Of a stretch of 64,000 nucleotides of DNA, positions 33,428 to 50,433 are shown piece after piece. The stretch covers positions 186,001 through 250,000 of the forward strand of contig QAZA01000010.1 of the NCBI GenBank assembly GCA_003054695.1. Reading direction: 5' to 3'. Positions within the stretch are counted from its first letter, which is position 1; each line of letters opens with the position of its first letter. The stretch comes from Verrucomicrobia bacterium LW23 (lineage in GTDB: Bacteria; Verrucomicrobiota; Verrucomicrobiia; Methylacidiphilales; UBA1321). The notes beneath the pieces are model-generated. The model made no database searches and was not told the DNA's origin. It saw nothing but the letters and a program-made list of their open reading frames with translations. The translations under genes were made by a program, and so were the position numbers.

Positions 33428-35167
33428 CTACACAATCCGTATGCCCCGCAGATGCGCAGAGCACACGTGAGGGTCCTCAGCGCTGAGGGCTCTCGCCTCC
33501 GGAAAGCGCAGGGTAACCCGCGTATGCGTGTGGTCGTGCTCCATCTCCACCTTGTGCGTCGATCCCGCGGGCTCCAGCGTAATCTCGACAGCCTTTTCCC
33601 CCTCCACAGCAATGGTTGCCTGCATGGGCTGCCACGTGGCCGGGCTGCCAAACTCCAGCGTTAGTGTTGACCCACGGGAGGAGGCCCCCAGGGTAAACTT
33701 GGTTTCCTCGCCGCACCAGCCGTCGCGGCGCATGCCGGAGCAGCCAGGCATCGAGCGCGGAAAAAGGCCGTTCACGGGCTCCAGCACCGTGGCGTAAAGC
33801 AGCTGCACCAGGCGCGCCTCCAGAATCTTCTTCTGCGCGGCCAAAGCTGACGCCATCGCGTCGTCCCCGGCCTTGATCAGATCCAGGTCCGAAAGATCCT
33901 TCAGCAGGCGGAAGGTCGGGAGGTGCGAGACGACGTGCGGAAACGTGTCGTCCAGCATTCGCAAATCGCGTCGCACGGCTTCCAATTCCCCCGCATCCCA
34001 CTTGAGCGCAAGGGGAAGCAACTGGGCGCTGACGATGCTGTAAAGCTCGCGCGTTTCCTGCTCCGGCGAGATAAAGAAGCGATGCGTGGTCACCTCCCCC
34101 GGCAGCGCGCTGGTTGCGCCAACTTCCGTCAAGCGCTCCTCCAGCACCTTAAGCAGGCTGTCCGACTTCTCCCGACCATAGCGCACGCGTTGCCCGGGCA
34201 GCGCAAAAGGCAGCTGGGGATCGCCGTAGCGAATGCCCTGGTGATCGGCACCCTGCTCTGTGTTGCTGATGATTGTGTAATCCGTAGCGCTAAAGTAGGC
34301 AATTTGCGCGTACCCGGCCAGCGAGCCCAGGAAGAGATTGCACGCGTTGATGAAGGCGATCTCGTGCCCGATGCCCATGCCCAGCGCGCGCAGGCTTACC
34401 ACATTGGGCAGCCGAAGCAACGCCAGCGGCTTCTCCTGAAGGCGCCCCAGTACTACAAAGCGCACGTGCGGAAAAGCCCGGGCCGTCCGCTCCATAAAGT
34501 GGAACCACTGCGTGAAATCCTCGTCGCGGTCGAAATCCTGGCCCGATTCGGACGGCTTCAGCCCGGAATCCAGCCGCTTGAGCCGCGAGTGCACGGCCAC
34601 CCAAAAGGTCTTCTCCGGGTAGCTCCCCTTCAGGGCTTCGATATCCGTGGCGCACTCCGGAACAATGCGCAGCCGGGGGCGGTTGCCCGTCTCGCGAAAC
34701 CAGTCGTTAATCTCCGCGTGCATGGAGCACTTGCTGCGGTGGAAAGCGACAACGGCCTGGGGATTCTTGCGCTTCTCGTAAATCTCCAGGTGCTCCGCGT
34801 AAGTGGCCCTGGCGGCCGGATCGGTGGCGGCCAGCTTTGTCCAGAAGTCGTCAAACGCCTGCCGCGAGGAGTGGAGCGTGAGGCTGGAGAACAGAGGGTG
34901 CGAGGTGAATGCGGACACCAGCTCCATCATAAAGAGGTCGGTAGCATGGGCCAGCGGCATCAGGATGGTGCAGCCGGACGCTTTCACGTCGCACACCAGA
35001 TGCACATGCACGCCCTTGCGGCCGGCCGCCTGGCAGCGCAGGGCCGATTTCACGCACCACGTCATCGCATCTCCCAGGCCAAAAGGCAGGATGGAAAAGT
35101 CGTGAATGTCGTGAAAGATCTCGGGCTCCGGGGCCGGCTTTGAGGTAAACAGACTCTTCAGGTTCAT
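33428..35167 (-). CDS. GT-B-like glycosyltransferase with C-terminal DGWC domain
   Basis: A 579-residue protein. The first 360 residues resemble GT-B (heptosyltransferase-like) enzymes: FSILPFGLGDAMTWCVKSALR at the N-terminus, TFWVAVHSRLKRLD in the middle, RFVVLGRLQEKP, and AFINACNLFLGSLAGYAQIAY in the donor-site region. Residues about 370-465 are helical. The end (about 470-579) contains CSGMRRDGWCGEE with DGWC at 482-485, followed by beta strands. It lies 40 bp downstream of the SDR/methyltransferase fusion gene on the same strand and probably ends that operon. The family of the enzymatic half was assigned by pattern only. Confidence 0.65.
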   Translation of the reverse strand: MNLKSLFTSKPAPEPEIFHDIHDFSILPFGLGDAMTWCVKSALRCQAAGRKGVHVHLVCDVKASGCTILMPLAHATDLFMMELVSAFTSHPLFSSLTLHSSRQAFDDFWTKLAATDPAARATYAEHLEIYEKRKNPQAVVAFHRSKCSMHAEINDWFRETGNRPRLRIVPECATDIEALKGSYPEKTFWVAVHSRLKRLDSGLKPSESGQDFDRDEDFTQWFHFMERTARAFPHVRFVVLGRLQEKPLALLRLPNVVSLRALGMGIGHEIAFINACNLFLGSLAGYAQIAYFSATDYTIISNTEQGADHQGIRYGDPQLPFALPGQRVRYGREKSDSLLKVLEERLTEVGATSALPGEVTTHRFFISPEQETRELYSIVSAQLLPLALKWDAGELEAVRRDLRMLDDTFPHVVSHLPTFRLLKDLSDLDLIKAGDDAMASALAAQKKILEARLVQLLYATVLEPVNGLFPRSMPGCSGMRRDGWCGEETKFTLGASSRGSTLTLEFGSPATWQPMQATIAVEGEKAVEITLEPAGSTHKVEMEHDHTHTRVTLRFPEARALSAEDPHVCSAHLRGIRIV

Positions 35168-37202: not shown

Positions 37203-37238
37203 CCAATGGTTCCCGTGGTGGCAAGGGCAAGCGTCCGC

Positions 37239-38195
37239 TCACGTGACGTTGAGGCTTGCGGCGAGGGCTTGCTGGATGCGGGGGCCGAGGGCCTCGGGGG
37301 TGAGACCGAAGTGGGCGTTGGCTTCTTCGGTGTCGCAGGTTTTGTGCAGGAATTCGTCCGCCGTGCCGAAGCGCAGCAGGCGGGCGGGGAGCTCGGGGCG
37401 GTCCGCTTTCCACTCGGCGATGCTGCCGCCGAGGCCGCCAAGGACGCTGTGTTCCTCCAGCGTGGCGACGACGCGCGCGGTGCTGAACGCGCGGTGCAAC
37501 GTGTTTTCGTCCAACGGCTTAACGGTGTGGAAGCTGTGGACGGACGCGTGGATATCGCGCGCCTTCAGCCAGTCCGCCAGTGCGAGCGCGGTGGGCAGCA
37601 TCACGCCGGTGCTCAGCAGCGCCACTTCGTCGCTCTCCCCCTGGCCATGGCCGCCGCGCATGGGGATGGCTTTGCCCAGCGTAAACGCGGGGACGCTCGG
37701 ATGCACTACGGGTTCGCCCTTTTTGCCAATGCGGATGTAGGTGGGGTTCGGATCCTGCAGGCTGGCGCGAAGCGCGGCGCGCACTTCCTGGGAGTCCGCC
37801 GGCGCGACGACGTTGAGGTGCGGAAGCAGGCGCAGCATCCCCATCTCCTCGCACGAATGGTGCGTGGCGCCCAGCGAGGCGTACGCCAGGCCGGAGCCGG
37901 TGCCGACGAGAATCACCGGCACGTGATGATAACACATGTCCACGCGAATCTGCTCCACGCAGCGATACGTGAGGAAGGGCGCGATGGTGTAGCACACCGG
38001 CCGAAACCCCGCCATGGCGAGGCCGGCGGCCAGGCCGATCATGTTGGCCTCCGCAATGCCGCAGTTGTAAAAGCGGTTGGGGCACGCCTCTTTAAAGCGA
38101 TCGAACAGCCGGTTGCCGATGTCGCCGGCAAGCAGCACAATGCGCTCGTCCGTCTGGGCCAGGGCCGTGATTTCCTCTGCAAAAGCGTTTCTCAT
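37239..38195 (-). CDS. Transketolase C-terminal subunit, copy 1
   Basis: A 318-residue protein equal to the pyrimidine-binding and C-terminal domains of transketolase. The catalytic Glu for thiamine diphosphate activation is in YNCGIAEANMIGLAAG. The domain order continues with YTIAPFLTYRCVEQIR and a C-terminal transketolase_C domain (AVRs of ALLSTGVMLPTALALADWL type). Full transketolases are single chains of about 650 residues; here the enzyme is split into two adjacent genes, the N-terminal one 50 bp upstream. It differs from the second copy (41653-42609) at only four residues (Met/Leu, Ala/Gly, Arg/Ser, Ile/Leu). Confidence 0.92.
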   Translation of the reverse strand: MRNAFAEEITALAQTDERIVLLAGDIGNRLFDRFKEACPNRFYNCGIAEANMIGLAAGLAMAGFRPVCYTIAPFLTYRCVEQIRVDMCYHHVPVILVGTGSGLAYASLGATHHSCEEMGMLRLLPHLNVVAPADSQEVRAALRASLQDPNPTYIRIGKKGEPVVHPSVPAFTLGKAIPMRGGHGQGESDEVALLSTGVMLPTALALADWLKARDIHASVHSFHTVKPLDENTLHRAFSTARVVATLEEHSVLGGLGGSIAEWKADRPELPARLLRFGTADEFLHKTCDTEEANAHFGLTPEALGPRIQQALAASLNVT

Positions 38196-38245
38196 GGAAA
38201 AAAGTAGGGAAGTGAGTAAGCGTTTAATGCTAAAGGACTTAGAGC

Positions 38246-39115
38246 TTAGTGCGCCTTCTTCGGGCCGGAACCCGCAGGAATGACCGGCGCCGGAAGCCCC
38301 AGCTCCAGAAACGCCGCCGTTACCTCCGACGCCTTGGGGATGCGATAGTGCCAGTTATTGTCGTCCTCCATAAAGGAGACGCCCTTGCCCTTCACCGTAT
38401 GCGCGATAATCGCCAGCGGCTTGCCCGAGGGGTGCGGCACTGTGGCAAGCGCGCCTGTCAGCGCTGCAAGATCATGCCCATCAACCTCTTGCGCATGCCA
38501 GCCAAAGGCGCGCCACTTCTCCACCAGCGGGGAGAGCGACGTGACTTCCTCGCTGCGGCCCGTGGCCTGCCACTTGTTGTAATCCACTATAACCACAAGG
38601 TTATCCAGCTTAAGCGCGGGGGCCAGCAACGCGCCCTCCCACACCGTGCCTTCGTTGCACTCGCCGTCGCTCAGCACCGTAAACACGCGGTAGCTTTGCC
38701 CGCGAATCTTCGCCGCAAGCGCCAGACCCAGCGAAATCGGCAACCCGTGGCCCAGCGATCCCGTCGCCAGCTCCACCCCGGGCGCGCAGTGCGGGCTCGG
38801 CTGCTCCGCCAGAGCGGCGCCATGCGTGGCGAACGTGTCGATCAGCTCCCGACCAAAAAAACCGTGCTCCGCAAGCACCGCATACAGCGCCATCGCCGCG
38901 TGCCCCTTGCTCAGGATCGCACGATCGCGCAGCGGATCCTCCGGAGCCTTCGGATCGATCCTCAGCGCCGCCCCATACAGCGCCACCAAAATATCCACCA
39001 CCGACAGCGACGACCCCAGATGCGGCGTCCCTGCACGGTGCGACATCATTATCACTTCCCCACGCATCCGCGCGGAGACTGCCGCAAGCTCACTGATCGT
39101 TTCGGTGCACTCCAT
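38246..39115 (-). CDS. Transketolase N-terminal subunit, copy 1
   Basis: A 289-residue thiamine-diphosphate-binding subunit. The TPP motif reads LSDGECNEGTVWEG, ending about 30 residues later in VDYNKWQ; SKGHAAMALYAVLAEHGFF and TGSLGHGLPISLGLALAAK are typical of transketolase N-domains. With the downstream C-subunit it would form a split transketolase that moves two-carbon ketol units between sugar phosphates or nucleotide sugars. It differs from copy 2 at two residues (Met17/Leu, Ser/Ala in IRGQxYRVF). The upstream flank is not a natural neighbour but the tail of a dehydrogenase gene carried along by the duplication. Confidence 0.92.
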   Translation of the reverse strand: MECTETISELAAVSARMRGEVIMMSHRAGTPHLGSSLSVVDILVALYGAALRIDPKAPEDPLRDRAILSKGHAAMALYAVLAEHGFFGRELIDTFATHGAALAEQPSPHCAPGVELATGSLGHGLPISLGLALAAKIRGQSYRVFTVLSDGECNEGTVWEGALLAPALKLDNLVVIVDYNKWQATGRSEEVTSLSPLVEKWRAFGWHAQEVDGHDLAALTGALATVPHPSGKPLAIIAHTVKGKGVSFMEDDNNWHYRIPKASEVTAAFLELGLPAPVIPAGSGPKKAH

Positions 39116-39136
39116 GATTGCGCAAAAGTATAAGGA

Positions 39137-39174
39137 TCACGGGTGCACGATACAATGAATTACTTCGCCGGAGC
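39137..39174 (-). pseudogene. 3' tail of the dehydrogenase gene left by the duplication
   Basis: Encodes the residues SGEVIHCIVHP followed by a stop, identical to the C-terminus of the dehydrogenase at 43551-44579. Nothing else of that gene is present here; immediately upstream (39175 on) the sequence is unrelated. It is a scar that shows the repeat was copied from the 41.6-43.6 kb site. Confidence 0.9.
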
Positions 39175-39254
39175 CACGGCCGGGCCGCTCGCCCTGCTGC
39201 CGCGCAGGGCCGCGCTCCGCTGCCCCTCCTCGCCCCGTTCTCCCCAATCCAGCT

Positions 39255-39917
39255 TTACTCGAAATAGATAAAGCTGTAGTCGCCCGTGTAGCCGGTTTGC
39301 TTAAACCACCACTCCCACTCCGCCGGGGTGCAAAACGCCTCGCACGTAAACTGCCAGTAGAGGAGATTCGCCTTCTCGGACTCGTTGCGGTAGGATTCCA
39401 CCACCAGGTACGCGTTGGTTTTGGTAACGCGCTGCATCTCGCGCAGGGCCGGGTCCAGCTCGTAGTTATAAAGATTGTGCAGCGTGTTGAGCGAGATGAC
39501 GAGGTCGAAGCTCTTGTCCGCAAACGGCAACTCCTTCGCATGGCCCTGGTGGAGGAACGGCTTGACTTCCTCCTTGGCGTGCTCGATGGCATAGCCGGAG
39601 ATATCCAGGCCGGCGACCTCGAGGCCTGGGACAGCCTGGGTCAGGTCGTACAGCAGGTAGCCTTTGCCGCAGCCGATATCCAGCACGCGCTGGCCGGCTT
39701 TGAGGTCGTAATGCTTGGCCAGGCGCTCGGCGACAGCCTTCCAGCGGCCGTCGTAACGCATTCCACCGTAACCGGTTTCGCGGCTGCCATCCCAGTAATC
39801 GTAGCCCCACTGCTTGGCCAGCTGCGCGACTTCGGCCTTGGGGCGGCCATTGACACGAGCCAGGTAGTCGCGTGTCGTCTTGGTATGGACGGGCGTAACG
39901 AAATCAATGTAGGGCAT
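39255..39917 (-). CDS. Class I SAM-dependent methyltransferase
   Basis: A 220-residue methyltransferase. Motif I is VLDIGCGKGYLLYDL, the acidic residue after strand 2 is in AGLDISGYAIEHA, and motif SFDLVISLNTLHNLYNYELD follows. The C-terminus (TPAEWEWWFKQTGYTGDYSFIYFE) resembles enzymes of the Methyltransf_11 group. It is 26 bp downstream of the APH-like kinase gene. The 80-bp gap between its stop and the duplication edge holds no feature. Confidence 0.85.
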   Translation of the reverse strand: MPYIDFVTPVHTKTTRDYLARVNGRPKAEVAQLAKQWGYDYWDGSRETGYGGMRYDGRWKAVAERLAKHYDLKAGQRVLDIGCGKGYLLYDLTQAVPGLEVAGLDISGYAIEHAKEEVKPFLHQGHAKELPFADKSFDLVISLNTLHNLYNYELDPALREMQRVTKTNAYLVVESYRNESEKANLLYWQFTCEAFCTPAEWEWWFKQTGYTGDYSFIYFE

Positions 39918-39943
39918 AAGAAAAAGGAAGCGTTGTGTACGGT

Positions 39944-41032
39944 TTATTCGGAAATAACAGGCTGCAGAAAATCGAAATCAACAGTAAGCGCGGCAAGGGA
40001 TCTCTTCGCTTTATCCAGCTGCAAGCGCTGCTTGTCGGCGCGGGCGCCGGAGGGACTGGCGAAGCGGCGGCGGTCCTTGCCGGTAGGGAGGAACTCGTTG
40101 AGCACAATGCAGCACCATTTAAGCTGGTACAGTGGCAGCAACAGTTGAATCTTCCCCGCGTCCATCAGATCCGGAAGTGCCTGCTGCAGAAGGCTATAGC
40201 TATGCCGCCACAAAGCGTGCGGCACGGGAAGCGCCGGCTGGCTGAGGAAATCGCAGAAGAACTTGGCGGGATCATCCACGCCCGCGTACTCAAAATCAAA
40301 GAAGTGCAGCGCGCCGGCGGAGTCGCTCAGCGCGTTGTGAAAGCCAAAGTCCGAAGGCGAGACGCAACGACGGGCAGCAGGCAACTCCTCGCTGAGGTTG
40401 GCGCCGGAGCCGCGGATGACGTCCCGCAGCTGGTCAAAGCACGGGCGCAGTCTCTCGGCAACAAACGCCGCGGCCTCCTGCTCCAGCGGCGTGATGGGCG
40501 GCTCGTCGTCGGAGCGCTCGCGCCGCGGATTCAGGCCGGTCTCCAGACGAAGCACGCGACGCTCCACGCAATCCAGATGCGTCTGCAGGGAGAAACATGC
40601 CTCGGAGGCTGGAGACATGTCGGCCCAGTTTGCATGCTGACCAGGCGGGTTCAGCGCGATGAAAAACTGCAGGGCCTGCTCAACGGAGTTCTCGCTGATG
40701 ACATCGACCGTGAGCTTGCGACCTTCGATCCACGAGAAAAGCCCCAGCCCGTGCGGGCGCGACCACGCGAGCGCGCGGGCGGTGCGCGGCTGCGCGGGGA
40801 GCTTGCCCAGGTAGGTGTAGAACGAGTTCTCGGCGTGAAAACGGTCGCGTGTGTCGCCGGGCGACTGGAAAAAATGCTTGAGCACCAACGGCGCGGTAAG
40901 AGCCTCGGCCTCAACGCGATAGACGCGATTATTCGCGCCGCCGGAAAGCGGCTCGACTGTAAAGCTGCCCGTGCAGCCCACGGATTCGAGGATTGCAGCG
41001 GTGCCGTCCGGCGGCTGAAAAGGTTCGCTCAT
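39944..41032 (-). CDS. Aminoglycoside-phosphotransferase-like (APH) kinase
   Basis: A 362-residue kinase-fold protein. The N-lobe has GGANNRVYRVEA, the catalytic loop is SPSDFGFHNAL (the family Asp, with His-Asn following) and the metal-binding segment FFDFEYAGVDDPAKFFCDFL. APH-like enzymes in glycan loci phosphorylate small sugars, alcohols or choline-like compounds; antibiotic resistance is not implied. It lies 4 bp from the HAD hydrolase gene upstream, so the two are probably translated from one message and could work as an opposing or sequential kinase/phosphatase pair. Confidence 0.85.
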   Translation of the reverse strand: MSEPFQPPDGTAAILESVGCTGSFTVEPLSGGANNRVYRVEAEALTAPLVLKHFFQSPGDTRDRFHAENSFYTYLGKLPAQPRTARALAWSRPHGLGLFSWIEGRKLTVDVISENSVEQALQFFIALNPPGQHANWADMSPASEACFSLQTHLDCVERRVLRLETGLNPRRERSDDEPPITPLEQEAAAFVAERLRPCFDQLRDVIRGSGANLSEELPAARRCVSPSDFGFHNALSDSAGALHFFDFEYAGVDDPAKFFCDFLSQPALPVPHALWRHSYSLLQQALPDLMDAGKIQLLLPLYQLKWCCIVLNEFLPTGKDRRRFASPSGARADKQRLQLDKAKRSLAALTVDFDFLQPVISE

Positions 41033-41035
41033 GTG

Positions 41036-41656
41036 TCAGGCGCTTACCAGGGCCGGGATCTCCGCCCACGAGTGAACGATGGTGTAATGCTCCGAGGGCC
41101 GGACGTTTTTCTGCGGATCGAAGAGGATTCGCCGAATGCCGGACGGAAACGCCGGATCGAGCAAGAACTCGGGGAGGTCATCGATAAACACCTGGCAGCC
41201 AAGGGCTTCCGCTCGCTGAGCCTTCTCGGTTTTGGTGGGGGCAAACCACACATTGCCGCGCGGCAGGCCGATGGCGCTGGAGTGGACACCCTGCGTCTCC
41301 AACCAGCGGCGGGCGGACTCGTGGAGGTCGACGGGCTCCCCCTTGATGGGGTAGCGCGTTTTGTGGCTGACGATGTGGAGGGTCCAGCCGCTTGCGATGC
41401 CTTGGCGGATGAAGTCGAGCGCGCCCGGGTAGGCTTCGGCCTCCACGATGCGGTTGCCGTACACCACGCCCTGCATCTCGGTCCACGCGGGTTCCCGGCC
41501 GATTTGGCGCAGGTAGTTGCGCACGGCGGTTTTGTTTACCGGCACGTCGTCGGGGATGAGCTTTTGCTCAGCGGCGACGCGATGGAACAGCGTATCGTAG
41601 CAAACGAGGGTGTTGTCGAAATCGATGCCGACGACGATGGGTGGTTGGGTGCTCAC
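41036..41656 (-). CDS. HAD-superfamily hydrolase
   Basis: A 206-residue phosphatase-like protein. Motif I is GIDFDNTL with Asp12 and Asp14; IVSHKTRYP supplies the motif II Ser, a Lys in PTKTEKAQR fits motif III, and motif IV is FIDDLPEFLLD. The start is GTG at 41656 and overlaps the stop of the second transketolase C gene by 4 bp (GTGA), which indicates coupling; longer versions of this frame run antisense-like through the transketolase gene and are not real. Copy 1 of the repeat keeps the GTG but not this gene, which shows that copy 2 is in its original setting. Substrate unknown; a sugar phosphate is likely. Confidence 0.85.
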   Translation of the reverse strand: MSTQPPIVVGIDFDNTLVCYDTLFHRVAAEQKLIPDDVPVNKTAVRNYLRQIGREPAWTEMQGVVYGNRIVEAEAYPGALDFIRQGIASGWTLHIVSHKTRYPIKGEPVDLHESARRWLETQGVHSSAIGLPRGNVWFAPTKTEKAQRAEALGCQVFIDDLPEFLLDPAFPSGIRRILFDPQKNVRPSEHYTIVHSWAEIPALVSA

Positions 41657-42609
41657 GTGACGTTGAGGCTTGCGGCGAGGGCTTGCTGGATGCGGGGGCC
41701 GAGGGCCTCGGGGGTGAGACCGAAGTGGGCGTTGGCTTCTTCGGTGTCGCAGGTTTTGTGCAGGAATTCGTCCGCCGTGCCGAAGCGCAGCAGGCGGGCG
41801 GGGAGCTCGGGGCGGTCCGCTTTCCACTCCGCAAGGCTGCCGCCGAGGCCGCCAAGGACGCTGTGTTCCTCCAGCGTGGCGACGACGCTCGCGGTGCTGA
41901 ACGCGCGGTGCAACGTGTTTTCGTCCAACGGCTTAACGGTGTGGAAGCTGTGGACGGACGCGTGGATATCGCGCGCCTTAAGCCAGTCCGCCAGTGCGAG
42001 CGCGGTGGGCAGCATCACGCCGGTGCTCAGCAGCGCCACTTCGTCGCTCTCCCCCTGGCCATGGCCGCCGCGCATGGGGATGGCTTTGCCCAGCGTAAAC
42101 GCGGGGACGCTCGGATGCACTACGGGTTCGCCCTTTTTGCCAATGCGGATGTAGGTGGGGTTCGGGTCCTGCAGGCTGGCCCGCAGCGCGCCGCGCACTT
42201 CCTGGGAGTCCGCCGGCGCGACGACGTTGAGGTGCGGAAGCAGGCGCAGCATCCCCATCTCCTCGCACGAGTGGTGCGTGGCGCCCAGCGAGGCGTACGC
42301 CAGGCCGGAGCCCGTGCCGACGAGGATGACCGGCACGTGGTGGTAGCACAGGTCCACGCGGATTTGCTCCACGCACCGGTACGTGAGAAACGGCGCGATG
42401 GTGTAACACACGGGCCGAAACCCCGCCATGGCGAGGCCGGCGGCCAGGCCGATCATGTTGGCCTCGGCAATGCCGCAGTTGTAAAACCGGTTGGGGCACG
42501 CCTCTTTAAAGCGATCGAACAGCCGGTTGCCGATGTCGCCGGCAAGCAGCACAATGCGCTCGTCCGTCTGCGCCAGGGCCGTGATTTCCTCTGCAAAAGC
42601 GTTTCTCAT
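41653..42609 (-). CDS. Transketolase C-terminal subunit, copy 2
   Basis: A 318-residue protein with the same features as copy 1, including the catalytic Glu in CGIAEANM. Only four residues differ between the copies, while many third positions differ, so both have been kept under protein-level selection or gene conversion. The 3' end overlaps the HAD gene by 4 bp. The N-subunit gene is 50 bp upstream. Confidence 0.92.
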   Translation of the reverse strand: MRNAFAEEITALAQTDERIVLLAGDIGNRLFDRFKEACPNRFYNCGIAEANMIGLAAGLAMAGFRPVCYTIAPFLTYRCVEQIRVDLCYHHVPVILVGTGSGLAYASLGATHHSCEEMGMLRLLPHLNVVAPADSQEVRGALRASLQDPNPTYIRIGKKGEPVVHPSVPAFTLGKAIPMRGGHGQGESDEVALLSTGVMLPTALALADWLKARDIHASVHSFHTVKPLDENTLHRAFSTASVVATLEEHSVLGGLGGSLAEWKADRPELPARLLRFGTADEFLHKTCDTEEANAHFGLTPEALGPRIQQALAASLNVT

Positions 42610-42659
42610 GGAAAAAAGTAGGGAAGTGAGTAAGCGTTTAATGCTAAAGGACTTAGCGC

Positions 42660-43529
42660 TTAGTGCGCCTTCTTCGGGCCGGAACCCGCAGGAATGACCG
42701 GCGCCGGAAGCCCCAGCTCCAGAAACGCCGCCGTTACCTCCGACGCCTTGGGGATGCGGTAATGCCAGTTGTTATCGTCCTCCATAAAGGAGACGCCCTT
42801 GCCCTTCACCGTGTGCGCGATAATCGCCAGCGGCTTGCCCGAGGGGTGCGGCACCGTGGCCAGCGCGCCCGTAAGCGCTGCAAGATCATGGCCATCAACC
42901 TCTTGCGCATGCCAGCCAAACGCGCGCCATTTCTCCACCAGCGGAGAGAGGGAGGTGACTTCCTCGCTGCGGCCCGTGGCCTGCCACTTGTTGTAATCCA
43001 CTATAACCACAAGGTTATCCAGCTTAAGCGCGGGGGCCAGAAGCGCGCCCTCCCACACTGTACCCTCGTTGCACTCGCCGTCGCTCAGCACCGTAAACAC
43101 GCGGTAGGCCTGCCCGCGAATCTTCGCCGCAAGCGCCAGACCCAGCGAAATGGGCAACCCGTGGCCCAGCGATCCCGTCGCCAGCTCCACGCCAGGCGCG
43201 CAGTGCGGACTCGGCTGCTCCGCCAGCGCCGCGCCGTGCGTCGCGAACGTGTCGATCAGCTCGCGACCGAAAAACCCGTGCTCCGCAAGCACCGCATACA
43301 GCGCCATCGCCGCGTGCCCCTTGCTCAGGATCGCACGATCGCGCAGCGGATCCTCCGGAGCCTTCGGATCGATCCTCAGCGCCGCCCCATACAGCGCCAC
43401 CAGTATATCCACCACCGACAGCGACGACCCCAGATGCGGCGTCCCTGCACGGTGCGACATCATTATCACTTCCCCACGCAGCCGCGCGGAGACTGCCGCA
43501 AGCTCACTGATCGTTTCGGTGCACTCCAT
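42660..43529 (-). CDS. Transketolase N-terminal subunit, copy 2
   Basis: A 289-residue TPP-binding subunit with motif LSDGECNEG. The start lies 21 bp downstream of the dehydrogenase stop, so the two are probably cotranscribed. This dehydrogenase-transketolase order is what the scar next to copy 1 preserves. The protein differs from copy 1 at two positions. Confidence 0.92.
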   Translation of the reverse strand: MECTETISELAAVSARLRGEVIMMSHRAGTPHLGSSLSVVDILVALYGAALRIDPKAPEDPLRDRAILSKGHAAMALYAVLAEHGFFGRELIDTFATHGAALAEQPSPHCAPGVELATGSLGHGLPISLGLALAAKIRGQAYRVFTVLSDGECNEGTVWEGALLAPALKLDNLVVIVDYNKWQATGRSEEVTSLSPLVEKWRAFGWHAQEVDGHDLAALTGALATVPHPSGKPLAIIAHTVKGKGVSFMEDDNNWHYRIPKASEVTAAFLELGLPAPVIPAGSGPKKAH

Positions 43530-43550
43530 GATTGCGCAAAAGTATAAGGA

Positions 43551-44579
43551 TCACGGGTGCACGATACAATGAATTACTTCGCCGGAGCGCATACGTGCAA
43601 TGCCGTCGTTGATCGACTCCAGCCCCATGCGATGCGAGATAAAGCCGCGCGGATCAAACCGGCCGTCGCGCATCATGCGGATGTAGCGCGGGATATCGAC
43701 CGCCGGCTCGCTTTCGCCGCCGTGGGAGCCGGTCAGCACTTTGCCGAAGTGCAGCGGCAGCGTGTTGATGGAGATGCGGCGCTCATGCTGCATAACGCCG
43801 AAAATGACGCAGCGACCGCGGGGGCCGGTCAACGTGTACGCCTTCTCGATGACGGAAGGCAGGCCGGTGCCGTCCACCACCACATCGGCCGTGCCGCCGA
43901 GGATCTCGCGTGCCGCGGCTTCGAAATCCGTGGTGGCCGAGTTGATGGTGTGCGTCGCGCCGAATTCTTTTGCCTTGGCCAGCTTGTGGTCCTGCAGATC
44001 GACCGCAATGATCGGGTGCGCGCCGGCGAGTTTGGCTCCGAGCACAACGCCCAGGCCGATACCGCCGCAGCCGACGATGACGACCGACTCCCCGATAGCG
44101 AGGCGCGCGTTGTTGGTAATGACGCCAAACCCGGTGGTCAGCGTATCCGCCAGCAGCGCGCATACTTCAAAGTCGGTGTCGCCGGGCACCACCGTCAGGC
44201 GGTTTTCGGAGACAACCGCGTACTTCTGGAACGTGGTGATGTTGCCCGCGTTTACCGTGGCGCCGTTGCGCGTGTAAACGCTGCCACCACCCTCGAGGCC
44301 CAGGCCCGCGCGCCAGTGAAGCACGGCGCGATCGCCCTGCTTGACACGCGTGACGCCGGGCCCTGCCTCCAGGATGGTCACCCCCGCCTCGTGCCCCAGC
44401 AGGTGGGGAAGGTAGCGGTCGGGGCCCTTCACGCCATCAATCTCGCCCAGTTGCGAGCCGCAGATGCGGGTAGCGCCGATTTCGACGAGCACCTGGCCGT
44501 AGCGCAGGGCGGGGATTTCGACTTCATCCAGCTCCAGCGGCTGCTTTTGGGCGACAAGAATCGCGGCGGGGGTCTTCAT
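43551..44579 (-). CDS. Medium-chain zinc-type alcohol dehydrogenase-like protein
   Basis: A 342-residue MDR-superfamily oxidoreductase. The catalytic zinc ligands Cys40 (RICGSQ) and His63-Glu64 (GHEAG) are present and the NAD-binding motif is VGCGGIGLGVV. The four-cysteine lobe that holds the structural zinc in classical alcohol dehydrogenases is missing: that region reads HWRAGLGLEGGGSVYTRNG. The frame opens with TTG two codons earlier, but the ATG at 44579 starts MKTPAAIL, the usual MDR N-terminus. In this setting it may oxidise or reduce a sugar or polyol phosphate linked to the transketolase reaction. Confidence 0.88.
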   Translation of the reverse strand: MKTPAAILVAQKQPLELDEVEIPALRYGQVLVEIGATRICGSQLGEIDGVKGPDRYLPHLLGHEAGVTILEAGPGVTRVKQGDRAVLHWRAGLGLEGGGSVYTRNGATVNAGNITTFQKYAVVSENRLTVVPGDTDFEVCALLADTLTTGFGVITNNARLAIGESVVIVGCGGIGLGVVLGAKLAGAHPIIAVDLQDHKLAKAKEFGATHTINSATTDFEAAAREILGGTADVVVDGTGLPSVIEKAYTLTGPRGRCVIFGVMQHERRISINTLPLHFGKVLTGSHGGESEPAVDIPRYIRMMRDGRFDPRGFISHRMGLESINDGIARMRSGEVIHCIVHP

Positions 44580-44618
44580 GGGCAATGTCTGTGAGGCAGA
44601 GAGGTCCGGCGGCGGCGA

Positions 44619-45563
44619 TCAGGCCAGGTTGGGGATGGTTTTCATCGTTTTGATGTTGAACCAGCGATCTTCCATCTTCAGCTTGCCGGCCTGGTAGGCG
44701 TCGATTACTTCCTGGATGCCGTCGGAGACCGTGAACTTCGGCTCAAAGCCTGTGGAAAGCAGCTTTTTGGAGGAGAGGCGGTAGGAACGCGGGTCGTTGG
44801 AGGGGCTCACCACGATTTCGCAGGGCACGCGATCCTTCACTCGCTGGGCGATTTCCAGCACGGTGATGTTCTCGAAGCCCGCGTTGAAGATGCCGGGGAA
44901 CTCCTGGCCCACCTTGAGGAAGTGGTGATACACGCGCACCATATCCTGCATGTGGATGTTGGGACGGGCCTGATCGCCGCCAAACACGGTGATGCGGCCG
45001 TTGGCCAGTGCCTGCATGGTCAGCATATTCACGGCGAGGTCCAGGCGCATGCGGGGGGAGTAGCCGCAAATGGTGGCCGGGCGCACGATATTGATGATGA
45101 TCTGATCCGCGTAGCTCAGCAGCACGCGCTCGCTCACCATCTTCGTTTTGTTGTAGTCCGATATGGGGACAAGCGAGAGATCTTCGGTAACTTCGGGCTC
45201 TTCCTTAACGCCGTACACGCTGCCGGAGCTGGCGTGGATGAACTGTTTGACGCCGGCCTTGATGGCGGCCTCGATGATCTGCATCGTGGCGAGGGCGTTG
45301 ACCTCCCAGTTGAGCTTGGAGTTCAGATCGCTGCACGGATCATTCGCGATGTTGGCCAGGTGAATGATCGTATCGATGCCTTCGAGCGGAATCGAGTCGG
45401 TCTCCCGGATGTCGCCCTGCACGACGCGAAGATTCGGATGTTCGGGGAGATAATTCCCAAACCACTGTATATCAAATACGGTTACCTTGTGGCCTTCTGC
45501 AAGAAGGCTGGGGGTTAACACTGTACCCACAAAACCGCAACCGCCTGTCACCAGTATGTTCAT
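44619..45563 (-). CDS. NAD-dependent epimerase/dehydratase
   Basis: A 314-residue extended SDR. The glycine motif MNILVTGGCGFVG is at the N-terminus, the active-site Ser cluster is ASSGSVYG and the Tyr-x3-Lys pair is in YNKTK. The C-terminal substrate domain has RPNIHMQDMVRVYHHF, typical of nucleotide-sugar epimerases. It lies 4 bp downstream of the nucleotidyltransferase/kinase gene and so probably acts on that enzyme's product, for example as a HldD-like or GalE-like epimerase; the exact reaction cannot be read. Confidence 0.9.
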   Translation of the reverse strand: MNILVTGGCGFVGTVLTPSLLAEGHKVTVFDIQWFGNYLPEHPNLRVVQGDIRETDSIPLEGIDTIIHLANIANDPCSDLNSKLNWEVNALATMQIIEAAIKAGVKQFIHASSGSVYGVKEEPEVTEDLSLVPISDYNKTKMVSERVLLSYADQIIINIVRPATICGYSPRMRLDLAVNMLTMQALANGRITVFGGDQARPNIHMQDMVRVYHHFLKVGQEFPGIFNAGFENITVLEIAQRVKDRVPCEIVVSPSNDPRSYRLSSKKLLSTGFEPKFTVSDGIQEVIDAYQAGKLKMEDRWFNIKTMKTIPNLA

Positions 45564-45567
45564 AGCT

Positions 45568-47112
45568 TTAGAAATTCAACAGACTCATTCCCGCCTTCAG
45601 CAATACTGCTTTTGAGATAGGCCGGGTATTGCCAACAATCTTGACTGCCTGCGCGCCGCCCAGCTGGCCAAGGAAGGTCACCAGCTCGTTGTGGTATCCT
45701 TTGGCGGCGCCAAGCGCGGCGATGGAGAAGAAGGCGTCGCCGGCACCCACGGTATCCGTAATGGAGGCTTCGAACGGCATCAGCTTGCTCGGCTTCTCGC
45801 CGTCCTTCAGGCCGATTGTCTCGACACCGCCTCGCGTCAGCCACGCATAGCTGCTGGAGAAGTTCTCCTTCAGCTTTTCCAGCGCATCCAGAATATTGAC
45901 GTGGCGCTGGCCGACGGCGAGCAGCATCTCAGTCTCATCCAGGCTAAAGCAATCCATGCGCTTGTATTGCCGGTTGATGATGTTAAAGCCGTGGTTGTTG
46001 CTGTTGGACTGGCAGTTTACCGCGAGGAACCTGGCGTGCTCCTGCACAAATTCGCGAACCTCCGGCTGCATGAGGCCGTGGCCGAAATCCATTACCATCA
46101 CAACATCGGCCTTCTCGATCTCGGCGCGAAGTGTCTCCATCACCCGGGCAATAAGCTCGGCGCGCGGGGGCTTGTCGTCGATGTAGTTGACGGAGAAGTA
46201 CTTGATCAACTCCTTGCCCTCCGCCTGCGGGGCCACAAAGCGGTGCTTGAGCACGGAGGTAAACGTCTCGTCACGCAACACCAACGAATCCTCGGGGGCC
46301 ACGTGAAGGTCGAGCTCCTCCTGCGCCCATGGCTCCGTGCCGAGGATGCTGACCAGCTTGACGTGGGGCGTGAACTCGCGCACATGCCGATACACCGCAA
46401 GCGTACCGCCAGGCTGCAGATCCTCGTACAGGTGCCGCGCGGATACGATGCTTGCTTTGGATGTAAGGCCCTGGACCTTTACATAGCTGTATTTATCAAA
46501 GATGATATCGCCAATAAGCAATACGCGTAGATCCTTCAGATCATCCACCGCCTGGCGGAATGTATCCGGCGGATACGTTACAGCAAGACTCTGGCAATAG
46601 CCCTTGATCGCTTCCGGCATGTGATCGAAGTGCTTGTTCAGCAGCTTCGTGGAGCTGAATACCACCGAACCGATATAGGAAACCCTGCCGCCAAACTTCT
46701 CAACCGTTGCAATATCATCCGCAATGTTACCCGTAACGTCATTGCTCTGATCTTCGTACTCCCGGCCTTTACAATAAATATCAGGCTGTACGCACTCAAT
46801 CGCCTCCACCGCGGCGCGGAACGGGATAACAACAACGTAATCCACACAGGCCAGCGCGGCGAGCGATTTAGCGCGAAGCTTATCGCTAAAGTAGGGGCGC
46901 CCCGGCCCTTTGTTGACGTACTTCTCCCCGGTAATCGTCACCACCAACACATCACCCAGAGCGCGCGCCTCCTCCAGGTGAAAGATGTGCCCGGGATGGA
47001 CCAGATCGAAGGTACCGTGGCACTGGACGACTCGAAGCCCTTCGCCGCGCAATTGCCGGAAGATTGCGCTTGCCTCTTCGAAGGGTAACAGTTTGGAAGC
47101 GATAGACGTCAT
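45568..47112 (-). CDS. Bifunctional nucleotidyltransferase / PfkB-type sugar kinase (HldE-like, domains in reverse order)
   Basis: A 514-residue fusion. Residues about 25-170 are a cytidylyltransferase-like domain with HGTFDLVHPGHIFHLEEA (HPGH at 39-42). Residues about 200-514 are a ribokinase/PfkB-type kinase with a late GAGDAF motif at about 456-461 (SITDTVGAGDAFFSIA). HldE of Escherichia coli has the kinase first and the adenylyltransferase second; here the order is opposite. The likely job is to phosphorylate a sugar phosphate at C1 and attach a nucleotide. The ATG at 47112 was chosen because the upstream 39 codons look untranslated; no strong ribosome site is visible. Confidence 0.85.
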   Translation of the reverse strand: MTSIASKLLPFEEASAIFRQLRGEGLRVVQCHGTFDLVHPGHIFHLEEARALGDVLVVTITGEKYVNKGPGRPYFSDKLRAKSLAALACVDYVVVIPFRAAVEAIECVQPDIYCKGREYEDQSNDVTGNIADDIATVEKFGGRVSYIGSVVFSSTKLLNKHFDHMPEAIKGYCQSLAVTYPPDTFRQAVDDLKDLRVLLIGDIIFDKYSYVKVQGLTSKASIVSARHLYEDLQPGGTLAVYRHVREFTPHVKLVSILGTEPWAQEELDLHVAPEDSLVLRDETFTSVLKHRFVAPQAEGKELIKYFSVNYIDDKPPRAELIARVMETLRAEIEKADVVMVMDFGHGLMQPEVREFVQEHARFLAVNCQSNSNNHGFNIINRQYKRMDCFSLDETEMLLAVGQRHVNILDALEKLKENFSSSYAWLTRGGVETIGLKDGEKPSKLMPFEASITDTVGAGDAFFSIAALGAAKGYHNELVTFLGQLGGAQAVKIVGNTRPISKAVLLKAGMSLLNF

Positions 47113-47486
47113 ATCGTTAGAGTCTGCATTCGTAGTCCGGTCGTAAGCCGCGAAGTAACAGGTTGATAAAGTGAGGCGTGGAAGCTTTAAGGGAAGGCCG
47201 GATAATAAGGAAAGGTACAAATGGATCAATCATAAAGATCCAGATGCCCCCGAATAGCCTTAACGGCTAAATTGATCCCCGCCTTTTGCTCCGGCCCGCC
47301 TGCGGCCCGCTGTCAAACAAGGCTGGTACCCGATAACATCCCAAGTTTCGGATCTGGTGCGTTCAAAAAGGCTCAACGCCAGGGCGCGACGAAGAAGAAT
47401 ATTGGATTAATATTCGACTGAGGAGCAACGCGGGCGCTGGGTCTTTTTCAGCGCGTCAGATGCGAAAATTAGGCTGTCATAGGGTG
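47113..47486. other. 374-bp gap with two small hairpins
   Basis: No gene. TAGCC-TTAAC-GGCTA lies at 47255-47269 and GAATATT-GGATT-AATATTC at 47397-47415. The gap separates the dehydratase gene (upstream on the minus strand) from the nucleotidyltransferase/kinase, so a promoter for the latter is expected here, but no clear -35/-10 pair was found. Confidence 0.4.
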
Positions 47487-48491
47487 CTAAGCCTTGTGAA
47501 TATAGTCGAACGGCTGCGCCTTCAGCGCCTCCAGATTATTGCGCACCCAGTCGATCGTTTGCGCCACACCCGTCTCCAGGCTCACGGCGTCCGCCCAGCC
47601 CAGCTCCCTGCGAGCGCGCGCGCTGTCCAGAAAATACGCGGCATCCTTGCCCGGTCGGTCATCCACCACGTTCACCACGTCGTCAAACTTAACACCCATG
47701 CTGGTGCAAATCATCTCCACGAGATCGCGGATGCTAAGATGGCGCGGCGTGGAGAGGTGGTAGCAGGCACCGGGCTCGGCACTCTCCGCCGCCTGCAGCG
47801 TTGCGGCCGCCACGTCGTCAATATGGATAAACGAGCGCACCGAGTGGCCGCCGCCATGCAGCTCCAGCTTCTTGCCCAGCATTATGTACAGGATAGTGCG
47901 CGGGATAATGCGATACAGCTGCTGGCCCGGGCCATACACATTGGCGGCACGCGTCCAGATAACGGGAAACTTATGTTGCTGAAGGAAGGTACGCAGATGC
48001 AGATCGCACGCCGCGCGCGATGCCGCGTAAGGCGTGCTGGGATTGAACGGCGCGCTCTCATCTATAAGGCCCGACGTATTGCCATACACCTCCGGCGTGG
48101 AGACATGTACGTACTTCTTTAAATACGCAGCCTTGCGAAGCCGGTTATGGAAACAGACATTGCCTACAACATTCGTCTGGTACCAGTGCTCCGGATGTAA
48201 CCAGCTTTGTGCCACCATTCCCTGGGCAGCAAAGTTAACCACATAGGCCGGCTGAAAGTCGTCCAGCGCCGTCATCAGGCGATCCAGGTCCTGATTCAAG
48301 TCCGCCTGTACAAACTGAAAGCCTGCCTGTTGTTCCGTATCCAACCAGCGGTAAGGAAGAAACACCGTAGCGAGTTCATCGGAACGGCTGGCACCCAATA
48401 CATCATGTCCCTGCGCCAGGCAGTGACGAACAAAGCTTGCGCCGGAGAAGGAGTTGCTGCCGATAACAGCAATACGCGGACGGGAATTCAT
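47487..48491 (-). CDS. NAD-dependent epimerase/dehydratase, RmlB/Gmd-like
   Basis: A 334-residue extended SDR. The N-terminal motif IAVIGSNSFSGASFVRH is a variant of GxxGxxG. NFAAQGMVAQSW and STPEVYGNT match nucleotide-sugar 4,6-dehydratases. The catalytic Tyr is in TPYAASRAACDLHLR, where the usual Lys four residues after Tyr is replaced by Arg (codon CGC). RSFIHIDDVAAATL and a C-terminal DRPGKDAAYFLDSARARRELGW follow as in dTDP-glucose dehydratases. It may make a keto-deoxy sugar for the WecE aminotransferase, but the Lys change makes the activity uncertain. Confidence 0.85.
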   Translation of the reverse strand: MNSRPRIAVIGSNSFSGASFVRHCLAQGHDVLGASRSDELATVFLPYRWLDTEQQAGFQFVQADLNQDLDRLMTALDDFQPAYVVNFAAQGMVAQSWLHPEHWYQTNVVGNVCFHNRLRKAAYLKKYVHVSTPEVYGNTSGLIDESAPFNPSTPYAASRAACDLHLRTFLQQHKFPVIWTRAANVYGPGQQLYRIIPRTILYIMLGKKLELHGGGHSVRSFIHIDDVAAATLQAAESAEPGACYHLSTPRHLSIRDLVEMICTSMGVKFDDVVNVVDDRPGKDAAYFLDSARARRELGWADAVSLETGVAQTIDWVRNNLEALKAQPFDYIHKA

Positions 48492-48565
48492 TGTGTAGAA
48501 AAGTTATCTGTCAATCGAACAAACCAAAGAGAAAGCACAATAGCAGTACGAAAAAGTCAGTCGCA

Positions 48566-49150
48566 CTACTCCGCAACAACACCAGCAGGGCAACCGGCCC
48601 GCCTCAACTGCCTTACGACCATATGTCCCACAACCATCTGAACATCCTCAGCAATCTGCATATCGTTAACGGCAAAATGCAGGGGAATATCCGCAAGCGC
48701 TTTGCTTTTTCCACCTGTAAAACCAAGCACAGCAGCACTCGTAACACCAATCTCCTTAGCCACCTTCAAAACTTCCACAATATTGGGTGAGTTACCGCTG
48801 CCGGAGAAAACAATAAGCACATCCCCCGGCCTGGCCAGCGTGCGCAATTGATAGGAGAACATATGCTCGTAGCCCACATCATTTGCCAGGCACATCATAA
48901 CCGACGTGTTACTACAAAGCGAGTGAACGCGAATACCGTTTTTGTAATGTAAGCCAGTGCCACACAAAAAGTCATTCGCAAGATGGTTTGCCGAAGCGCC
49001 GCTACCACCGTTGCCACAAATAAAGATCTGATCTCCCCGCTCCCAACAACGGAGCAGGACATCATACAGGGGCTCTACCTGCGTCCAGTCAAACGACTCT
49101 AATACTTGCGCCAGCTGGCTCGCATACGAGCTAAAATTGCTTTCTCCCAT
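48566..49150 (-). CDS. gmhA: SIS-domain phosphoheptose isomerase-like protein
   Basis: A 194-residue sugar isomerase. The sugar-phosphate loop GNGGSGASANHLANDF is in the same place as in GmhA, followed by VGYEHMFSYQLRTLARPGDVLIVFSGSGNSPN and a late QIAEDVQMVVGHMVVRQL helix with the expected Glu/His-like polar residues. GmhA converts sedoheptulose 7-phosphate to D-glycero-D-manno-heptose 7-phosphate. Together with the HldE-like enzyme and the transketolase pair downstream it suggests a heptose-like branch. It is 74 bp upstream of the dehydratase gene on the same strand. Confidence 0.82.
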   Translation of the reverse strand: MGESNFSSYASQLAQVLESFDWTQVEPLYDVLLRCWERGDQIFICGNGGSGASANHLANDFLCGTGLHYKNGIRVHSLCSNTSVMMCLANDVGYEHMFSYQLRTLARPGDVLIVFSGSGNSPNIVEVLKVAKEIGVTSAAVLGFTGGKSKALADIPLHFAVNDMQIAEDVQMVVGHMVVRQLRRAGCPAGVVAE

Positions 49151-49230: not shown

Positions 49231-50433
49231 CTATAATGTGCAGGTCGATAGGCCCAGGCGGGTGAGCAATTCATCCGCAATAGCCAGCGAGGCGGTCGCC
49301 CCGGGGCTTGGCGCGTTGAGCACATGCAGACTCTGCTTATCCTGTTGAATCTCAAAATCTTGCACCAGCGTGCCATCCCGCGTCATCGCCTGTGCGCGAA
49401 CGCCCGCGCCACCCGGCACCAAATCTTCCTTAACCACATCCGGCACAAGGCGTTGCAGCGAGCGGCAGAACAGATTCTTGCTCATCGCTCGCGCCACTTC
49501 CTGCCCGCACATCACCCCGTGCTTCACCGCAAAACGCCACAGCCCGGGGAAAAGCAGCGTCTCCAGCGCGTCCCCCGCAGCAAAATCCAGGCGGCCGTAG
49601 CCCTCGCGCTTGAGGGCAAGCACCGCGTTCGGCCCCGCCTCCACGCCACCATGGATCATGCGCGTAAAGTGCACGCCCAGAAAGGGAAACGCCGGGTCCG
49701 GCACAGGGTAGATCAGGTGCCTGACCAGGCCTTCGCGCTCCGGCCGCAGCTTGTAGTAGTCGCCGCGAAACGGCACGATTTGCGAGCCATCCTTCACTCC
49801 GGCCAGTCGGCCGATGCGGTCGCACTGCAACCCTGCGCAGTTCACCAAAAACTCAGCCTCCACACTCTGCCCGGCGGACTCCACGCGCCAGCCCTTCTCC
49901 AGGCGCGTCAGTCGCAAGACGTTGAAGCCGAGCGAGATGGCGCCGCCCCGTTCCAGTATCCTCTGCCTTAACGCTTCGCATACGCCTGCATAATCAACGA
50001 TGCCCTCCTCCGGCACCAGCACCGCTGCCTTCCCAGCCACGTGAGGCTCGCGCGCCACAATCTGGTCGCGCTCCAGCCAGGCCAGCCCCTGCAGGCCGTT
50101 TGCCGTCCCGCGCTCAATCAGCGTGCGCAGCCGCGGAATTTCTTCGTCGGAAACGGCCACCACAATCTTGCCGCAAATCTCGTGCGCAATCTCGTACTTC
50201 TGGCAAAACGCCGTCATCTGCTTAATGCCAGAGACAGCCATCCGCGCCTTTACCGAGCCCGGCTTATAATACAAGCCGGCATGCAGCACGCCACTGTTAT
50301 GTGTGGACTGATGTTTGCCGAGAGCCTGCTCCTTCTCCAGCAACGTAAGCTTCAGTCCCGGAACAACATGCAACAACTTGGCCGCAATGGCTAAACCAAC
50401 AAGCCCACCTCCGACAATAACACACGATTTCAT
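49231..50433 (-). CDS. lhgO: L-2-hydroxyglutarate oxidase/dehydrogenase family FAD enzyme
   Basis: A 400-residue FAD-dependent oxidoreductase. It opens with the dinucleotide motif VIVGGGLVGLAIAAKLL, followed by LLEKEQALGKHQSTHNSGVLHAGLYY, the signature of LhgO (YgaF). The end has GAGVRAQAMTRDGTLVQDF and LNAPSPGATASLAIA. The known enzyme oxidises L-2-hydroxyglutarate to 2-oxoglutarate with electrons to quinones. Its place inside a glycan locus is unusual: it may clear a by-product or oxidise another 2-hydroxy acid. It has no signal peptide. Confidence 0.93.
   Translation of the reverse strand: MKSCVIVGGGLVGLAIAAKLLHVVPGLKLTLLEKEQALGKHQSTHNSGVLHAGLYYKPGSVKARMAVSGIKQMTAFCQKYEIAHEICGKIVVAVSDEEIPRLRTLIERGTANGLQGLAWLERDQIVAREPHVAGKAAVLVPEEGIVDYAGVCEALRQRILERGGAISLGFNVLRLTRLEKGWRVESAGQSVEAEFLVNCAGLQCDRIGRLAGVKDGSQIVPFRGDYYKLRPEREGLVRHLIYPVPDPAFPFLGVHFTRMIHGGVEAGPNAVLALKREGYGRLDFAAGDALETLLFPGLWRFAVKHGVMCGQEVARAMSKNLFCRSLQRLVPDVVKEDLVPGGAGVRAQAMTRDGTLVQDFEIQQDKQSLHVLNAPSPGATASLAIADELLTRLGLSTCTL

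Follow-up and report, generated by a model that had tools for sequence, protein, structure and literature searches.

Keto sugars are branched by three families of thiamine diphosphate (ThDP)-dependent enzymes, which are listed in PMC12247030 as YerE-like decarboxylases (in lipopolysaccharide), alphaKADH2 pairs and split-gene transketolases. The alphaKADH2 pairs are of the E1 type and form C2 branches, with one of them tested in vitro, and the split-gene transketolases are represented there by 13 sequences, all from Streptomyces and none tested in vitro (PMC12247030). Here we describe an operon that carries a split transketolase together with nucleotide-heptose-type genes. It lies on the minus strand at positions 37239-49150 of a 64,000-nucleotide stretch of the genome of Verrucomicrobia bacterium LW23 (contig QAZA01000010.1, positions 186,001 to 250,000), hereafter called the window.

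The genes are transcribed in the following order: a SIS-domain isomerase (SIS), a short-chain dehydrogenase/reductase (SDR1), a protein fusing a nucleotidyltransferase (NT) to a PfkB kinase (NT-PfkB), a second SDR (SDR2), a zinc-dependent alcohol dehydrogenase (Zn-ADH), the two transketolase subunits TktN and TktC, a HAD-like protein, an APH-type kinase, a methyltransferase and a second copy of TktN and TktC. All the genes named in the initial annotation, i.e., the split transketolase present twice and the GmhA-like, HldE-like, HAD and SDR genes, are thus found on one strand. The SDRs number two; of the group formed by these, the Zn-ADH, the APH-type kinase and the methyltransferase, most were unlisted in it. 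We propose, as its most probable function, that the operon encodes a modular pathway for a nucleotide-activated, C2-branched sugar of the heptose type (or similar) destined for a surface glycan, a proposal for which we judge the chances to be evenly balanced. A more specific version is put forward tentatively, as a possibility falling somewhat short of that balance: a keto-heptose would receive its C2 branch from either of two interchangeable enzymes, a split transketolase whose active site has been rebuilt or a pyruvate-using E1alpha/E1beta pair (E1 pair), and the surface glycans of Gram-negative bacteria would thereby contain nonoses with a hydroxyacetyl or acetyl branch.

With the ADP-heptose pathway (GmhA, HldE or HldA plus HldC, GmhB, HldD) the operon shares homologues of the isomerase, the PfkB kinase and the nucleotidyltransferase; it differs in the reversed domain order of its fusion protein and in scores below the model cut-offs, and no GmhB- or HldD-type gene was identified within it. 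The pathway to the C8 sugar of lincomycin also combines a dedicated enzyme forming a C-C bond with GmhA-, kinase- and NT-type enzymes, but that enzyme is a transaldolase, the nucleotide is GDP, and the bond is formed before the isomerase acts. The operon resembles the Campylobacter pathways of GDP-heptose modification (Cj1427 C4-dehydrogenase and others; PMC10680097) in its SIS isomerase and in an SDR that would draw on 2-oxoglutarate to form a 4-keto heptose, next to an L-2-hydroxyglutarate oxidase gene. Where those pathways have HddA and a guanylyltransferase as separate proteins, the operon has an HldE-like fusion, and its ThDP enzyme, Zn-ADH and HAD/APH pair are features of its own; the word transketolase is absent from PMC10680097. 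The split transketolases of miharamycin and amipurimycin, as described in PMC12247030, also stand beside an oxidoreductase proposed to make a keto sugar, but they belong to Streptomyces secondary metabolism. Here the setting is Verrucomicrobiota, with two further phyla, and a locus that probably serves a glycan and carries a heptose-type activation module. The alphaKADH2 enzymes of aldgamycin and kibdelomycin from the same source resemble the two-subunit E1 pairs found in the sugar-nucleotide clusters of sister loci, although these pairs occur in relatives and not in the window, and are paired with NT-PfkB. In these terms, the exchange reported below is one between the alphaKADH2-type (E1) and split-gene transketolase families. 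No description of the operon or its gene combination was found among the open-licence PMC papers searched, which does not prove that none exists.

Exchange of ThDP enzymes across NT-PfkB loci

Loci were taken as the surroundings of NT-PfkB homologues, and the presence of the cassette genes was scored in each. The initial set comprised about 30 long matches, of which 20 were fetched first with their flanks, together with the window, and the other nine later. The first 23 loci (window included) held a split transketolase in ten cases, an E1 pair in seven, neither in six and both in none. The E1 pair, which by NCBIfam is nearest to pyruvate dehydrogenase E1alpha and E1beta, occupies the place corresponding to that of the split transketolase in sister loci. 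As a control, stand-alone NT-domain matches from the same phylum were analysed with their surroundings (20 loci, 352 kb), and none of these loci had either ThDP pair, versus 17 of the 23 NT-PfkB loci (Fisher p 2.4e-7). Chance adjacency was rejected on the basis of this control and of the recurrence in tens of other genomes.

A class-wide search gave 29 further loci, and a prediction was recorded as the matches became known and before any of these loci was fetched; 23 of them carried the transketolase pair, one the E1 pair, none both and five neither (three of the five cut by contig ends). Two plasmid loci come from other phyla: that of Azospirillum oryzae has an E1 pair, close to which no E2 gene is annotated, and that of Solidesulfovibrio carbinolicus has a split transketolase. 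The plasmid searches yielded nothing useful beyond three records. Across 54 loci, the transketolase pair was present in 34, the E1 pair in nine, neither in 11 and both in none. The nine late-fetched loci, in all of which NT-PfkB is at most 35% identical and the link is weaker, showed three, one and five, respectively, and the total of 63 NT-PfkB loci thus comprises 37 with transketolase, ten with E1, 16 with neither and none with both. These counts are not independent, as L009 nearly duplicates L010 and some genera (g264, g25, g203) contribute several loci each. Two partial matches (G469 and G520 C137) stand outside the 63. The same applies to four stretches that are not NT-PfkB loci: L088 (Azospirillum), with a transketolase but no NT-PfkB, and L121-L123, in which TktC is below 45% identity and no other cassette gene is found except a weak SDR1 match in L123.

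The converse relation was also seen. Among 28 genomes with a TktC of at least 47% identity, including one 58% match cut at 184 residues, 27 carry an NT-PfkB gene, complete or truncated, on the stretch or contig that holds TktC; the sole exception is a 3.4-kb contig (G545).

The NT-PfkB tree requires at least three changes between transketolase and E1, and the window's sisters in it are E1-type (94/95). The methyltransferase tree, by comparison, splits transketolase from E1 loci in one change (100/99), which means that this gene moves together with the ThDP enzyme; 30/34 transketolase loci and 5/9 E1 loci were found to contain it. SDR2 is the most constant partner (33/34 and 9/9, respectively). 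The HAD/APH pair accompanies the transketolase in 24 of the 34 loci and is present in none of the nine with E1. In L009 (14376-16028), a single fusion protein combines HAD and APH, and this speaks for a joint function. The SIS gene is absent from the examined stretch in 19/34 transketolase loci and present in 8/9 E1 loci, some loci being cut short.

A third ThDP enzyme, acetolactate-synthase-like, lies near NT-PfkB in L043, L044, L046, L047 and L060, together with the E1 pair in three of these loci and with a small SDR in L044 and L046. It was kept out of the counts, as it stands outside the cassette in most of its loci. In L096 (G623 C32, genus g264), Zn-ADH, TktC, SDR1 and SDR2 are found in gapped pieces as if interrupted; intact relatives exist. 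The Azospirillum oryzae locus (L086, 15141-19429) has two DegT-type aminotransferases after the E1 pair, and the branch or a ring ketone may be transaminated there.

The transketolase active site and its duplication

The 34 transketolase pairs were compared with human transketolase, whose numbering is used, and with the Carboxydothermus split enzyme. All 34 keep the catalytic Glu, the Asp and Asn of the ThDP site and four His. Five further residues, R318, S345, H416, D424 and R474, are contacts to the sugar phosphate. H416 is replaced by G, D424 by L or N and R474 by K, each in 33/34 pairs (R474 being retained in one locus), and S345 is kept in none, with R in 29 and K in two. All five are intact in the full-length canonical housekeeping transketolase that the genome encodes elsewhere. 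At the level of residues, this comparison suggests that the locus transketolase has changed its substrate. Two other candidates were rejected as marks of the family: "SDG" for "GDG" in TktN also occurs in the housekeeping enzyme, and H110 is replaced by Q in only 25/34.

These results bear on the role given to the transketolase in the initial annotation, namely that it feeds the adjacent isomerase locally with a ketose phosphate, sedoheptulose 7-phosphate or another one, which would make the locus self-sufficient in heptose. The right enzyme classes do adjoin each other, the ThDP and catalytic residues are intact together with R318, and the duplication could reflect dosage. We nevertheless consider this role very unlikely, given the remodelled substrate site, the canonical enzyme elsewhere in the genome and the frequent absence of SIS beside the transketolase when it is present in nearly all E1 loci. 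Moreover, the E1 pair takes the place of the transketolase in 10/63 loci, and a methyl ketone derived from pyruvate is not isomerisable to an aldose. As the pyruvate-derived acetyl unit cannot give sedoheptulose 7-phosphate, the common role of the two ThDP enzymes is more likely C-C ligation downstream of the isomerase. In relatives its place is taken by another enzyme that links carbons, so the addition of a two-carbon branch is a more likely task of the transketolase than the supply of a precursor, and the branched sugar, a secondary idea of the initial annotation, has gained support.

TktN and TktC are contained in a 1,938-bp direct tandem duplication with 66 mismatches (Table 1). The copy adjoining the Zn-ADH gene is the source, because the second copy still holds the tail of that gene. 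The TktN copies differ by 34 synonymous and three non-synonymous changes and the TktC copies by 23 and five, i.e., 57 and eight for both genes, with ratios of non-synonymous to synonymous substitution (dN/dS) near 0.05 and 0.04. The pattern of substitutions argues that both copies are maintained or were recently homogenised. On the same dN/dS values, a pseudogene status of the duplicated copy was rejected.

The heptose-type core and the proposed pathway

In HldE the kinase comes first and the nucleotidyltransferase second; NT-PfkB has the reverse order, with residues 47-189 aligning to positions 322-459 of the HldE model and the kinase model covering residues 229-534. Its scores are far below the HldE equivalog cut-offs (95 vs 181.5, 88 vs 345 and 113 vs 521 bits). 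The AlphaFold2 model of the protein (pLDDT 90.6) has HldA as the nearest solved structure of the kinase domain (Z 32.4 over 305 residues, root-mean-square deviation 3.2, 17% identity), followed by pseudouridine kinase (Z 28.5), and Foldseek also ranks HldA first (9.5e-20 vs 7.9e-15). This nearness indicates kinship and not substrate. The best model match of SIS is gmhA, below the cut-off, which the genome's unlinked copy also fails to reach at 195.7 bits. In the Protein Data Bank (PDB), SDR2 matches 6vo6 first (E 6.5e-36; next 3.3e-23), which we take to be Cj1427, a GDP-heptose C4-dehydrogenase. Together, the gmhA match, the HldA-like fold and the 6vo6 match back the nucleotide-heptose-like core suggested in the initial annotation, which we regard as likely. 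An unlinked chromosomal heptose pathway, named there as part of what would speak against it, was also encountered, in the form of GmhA-, HldA- and HldC-like genes outside the operon, and the operon is therefore not the source of core ADP-heptose.

The NT-PfkB protein could instead activate another sugar or polyol phosphate, e.g., a CDP-linked C4 to C6 unit, which the ThDP enzyme would make or branch. The scores under all HldE and GmhA cut-offs, the PDB neighbours of the NT domain, the frequent absence of SIS and the ADP-heptose genes already present elsewhere favour such a core. Against it stand the position of HldA as nearest kinase by about 4 Z units, the similarity of SDR2 to 6vo6 and the 95 bits of the NT domain with TIGR02199, compared with 35.6 for glycerol-3-phosphate cytidylyltransferase. 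We find a non-heptose core rather unlikely.

For a heptose-type core, the reactions, all of which we infer, would run as follows. Sedoheptulose 7-phosphate from central metabolism would be isomerised by the SIS protein or the unlinked GmhA. After a phosphatase has taken off the 7-phosphate, NT-PfkB would phosphorylate C1 and transfer the nucleotide. SDR2, like Cj1427, would oxidise a hydroxyl of the ring, by analogy the one at C4, and pass the hydride to 2-oxoglutarate. The resulting L-2-hydroxyglutarate would be reoxidised by LhgO, an L-2-hydroxyglutarate oxidase encoded beside the cassette; SDR1 and Zn-ADH could serve further ring oxidation, dehydration or reduction. The ketone so produced would then receive two carbons from the ThDP enzyme, as hydroxyacetyl where this is the split transketolase of the window and probably as acetyl from pyruvate where it is the E1 pair of sister loci. 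The co-travelling methyltransferase would modify the branched product, and the HAD/APH pair would serve the transketolase variant only, in some phosphate exchange. The oxidation step follows Cj1427, for which PMC10680097 describes oxidation of GDP-heptose at C4 with hydride transfer to 2-oxoglutarate, giving L-2-hydroxyglutarate. By this analogy, LhgO fits the release of L-2-hydroxyglutarate by a Cj1427-like SDR2 and may recycle the co-product.

Ligation to the ketone of a nucleoside diphosphate (NDP) sugar is drawn from context, that is, from the keto-sugar-type SDR in 33/34 transketolase loci and the exchange with E1. The acceptor of the C2 unit could also be an aldehyde, whether free, phosphorylated or nucleotide-bound, and the ThDP enzymes would then yield a linear higher-carbon sugar, in the manner in which the transaldolase LmbR elongates the chain for the lincomycin C8 sugar. 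Aldehydes are the normal substrates of transketolases, Zn-ADH could produce a terminal aldehyde, and the HAD and APH proteins, confined to transketolase loci, could process a phosphorylated elongated ketose. We hold elongation to be unlikely, as acetyl from the E1 pair would give a methyl-ketone end unusable by the isomerase, and the most constant partner is an SDR resembling a C4-dehydrogenase.

Several observations weigh against C2 branching of a keto-heptose. In the active site, R318, a phosphate contact, is conserved in 34/34 pairs, H416 and D424 are each retained in one of the 34 loci, and the R or K replacing S345 in 31/34 could, judging from the residue alone, form a new phosphate contact, making a phosphorylated substrate possible. 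The best PDB matches of the NT domain are cytidylyltransferases, which concerns the identity of the nucleotide, and the PDB record of 6vo6 gives only "putative sugar-nucleotide epimerase/dehydratease". Where SIS is missing (19/34 transketolase loci), the term heptose rests on NT-PfkB and SDR2, and LhgO lies beside the cassette in only 4/54 loci (the window, L089, L090 and L092). Sixteen of the 63 loci have neither ThDP pair; of the first 11 such loci, seven lie close to the end of a contig and four (L047, L052, L054 and L112) do not. The association is also weak among distant NT-PfkB proteins (<30% identity). Finally, keto-sugar branching by split-gene transketolases is itself only proposed (PMC12247030).

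If the branching pathway is real, transketolase-based branching would extend from Streptomyces antibiotic clusters to the envelope glycans of several phyla, as its first occurrence outside Streptomyces. The loci would then amount to a paired experiment set up by nature, in which two different C2-ligases serve a single pathway, and the active-site signature G100, L108, K158 and R29 of TktC would help to find enzymes wanted for tertiary alcohols.

Gene layout and further features

Table 1. Predicted features of the operon and the adjoining LhgO gene (window positions)
Feature	Position	Strand	Basis or remark
Derived duplication copy	37237..39174		Retains remnant of Zn-ADH gene 3' end
TktC, split transketolase C-terminal subunit, duplicated copy	37239..38195	-	
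TktN, split transketolase N-terminal subunit, duplicated copy	38246..39115	-	
Class I S-adenosylmethionine (SAM) methyltransferase	39255..39917	-	
APH-family phosphotransferase, kinase-like	39944..41032	-	PF01636 43.9 bits
HAD-like protein	41036..41656	-	DFDNT motif; PF12710 sub-threshold
Source duplication copy	41651..43588		
TktC, original copy	41653..42609	-	Remodelled substrate site
TktN, original copy	42660..43529	-	PF00456; Carboxydothermus split transketolase 6yak E 7.7e-64
Zn-ADH	43551..44585	-	ADH_zinc_N 93 bits
SDR2, extended SDR, proposed NDP-heptose C4-dehydrogenase	44619..45563	-	Best PDB match 6vo6
NT-PfkB, N-terminal nucleotidyltransferase and C-terminal PfkB kinase	45568..47112	-	Mechanical open reading frame reaches 47229
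SDR1, dTDP-glucose-4,6-dehydratase-like	47487..48491	-	TIGR01181 215 bits, below cut-off 365
SIS-domain sugar-phosphate isomerase, GmhA-like	48566..49150	-	TIGR00441 108.7 bits, cut-off 209.45; SIS_2
LhgO, L-2-hydroxyglutarate oxidase	49231..50433	-	NF008726 517.2 bits, cut-off 299

Most intergenic gaps are between -4 and 80 bp; the exceptions are the 257 bp from SDR1 to the mechanical start of NT-PfkB and the 139 bp between the methyltransferase and TktN. The true start of NT-PfkB is probably the ATG near 47112, because the alignments with homologues begin about there. For the HAD gene, a GTG at 41656 is the probable start, which makes the gene overlap the stop of TktC; the DFDNT motif and a Pfam match under the threshold (20.3 vs 27 bits) are the basis of the HAD assignment. 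The motif is not the DRDGT of GmhB, as already remarked in the initial annotation; a GmhB-type role was rejected on this motif and on the different partners. The search of the APH-type kinase against PDB gave a single chance-level match.

The best PDB matches of SDR1 are dTDP-glucose 4,6-dehydratases. Its motif STPEVYG has Pro where the TDE triad of the dehydratases has Asp, and YxxxR stands in place of YxxxK, which is present in some relatives.

The LhgO gene is directly upstream of SIS, and genes for an FkbM methyltransferase and a WecE-type transaminase are located farther upstream. Apart from the four loci with LhgO beside the cassette, a fifth locus with an L-2-hydroxyglutarate oxidase (L106) is cut at its edge. 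Three otherwise unlike proteins of the glycan locus in the window (28530-30185, 31307-33403 and 33428-35167) share a (N/S)G(L/M)xxDGWC stretch, which is possibly a common unnamed domain, judging by this motif. Pfam names none of them, and the only NCBIfam name, given in the second, is for a separate glycosyltransferase domain.

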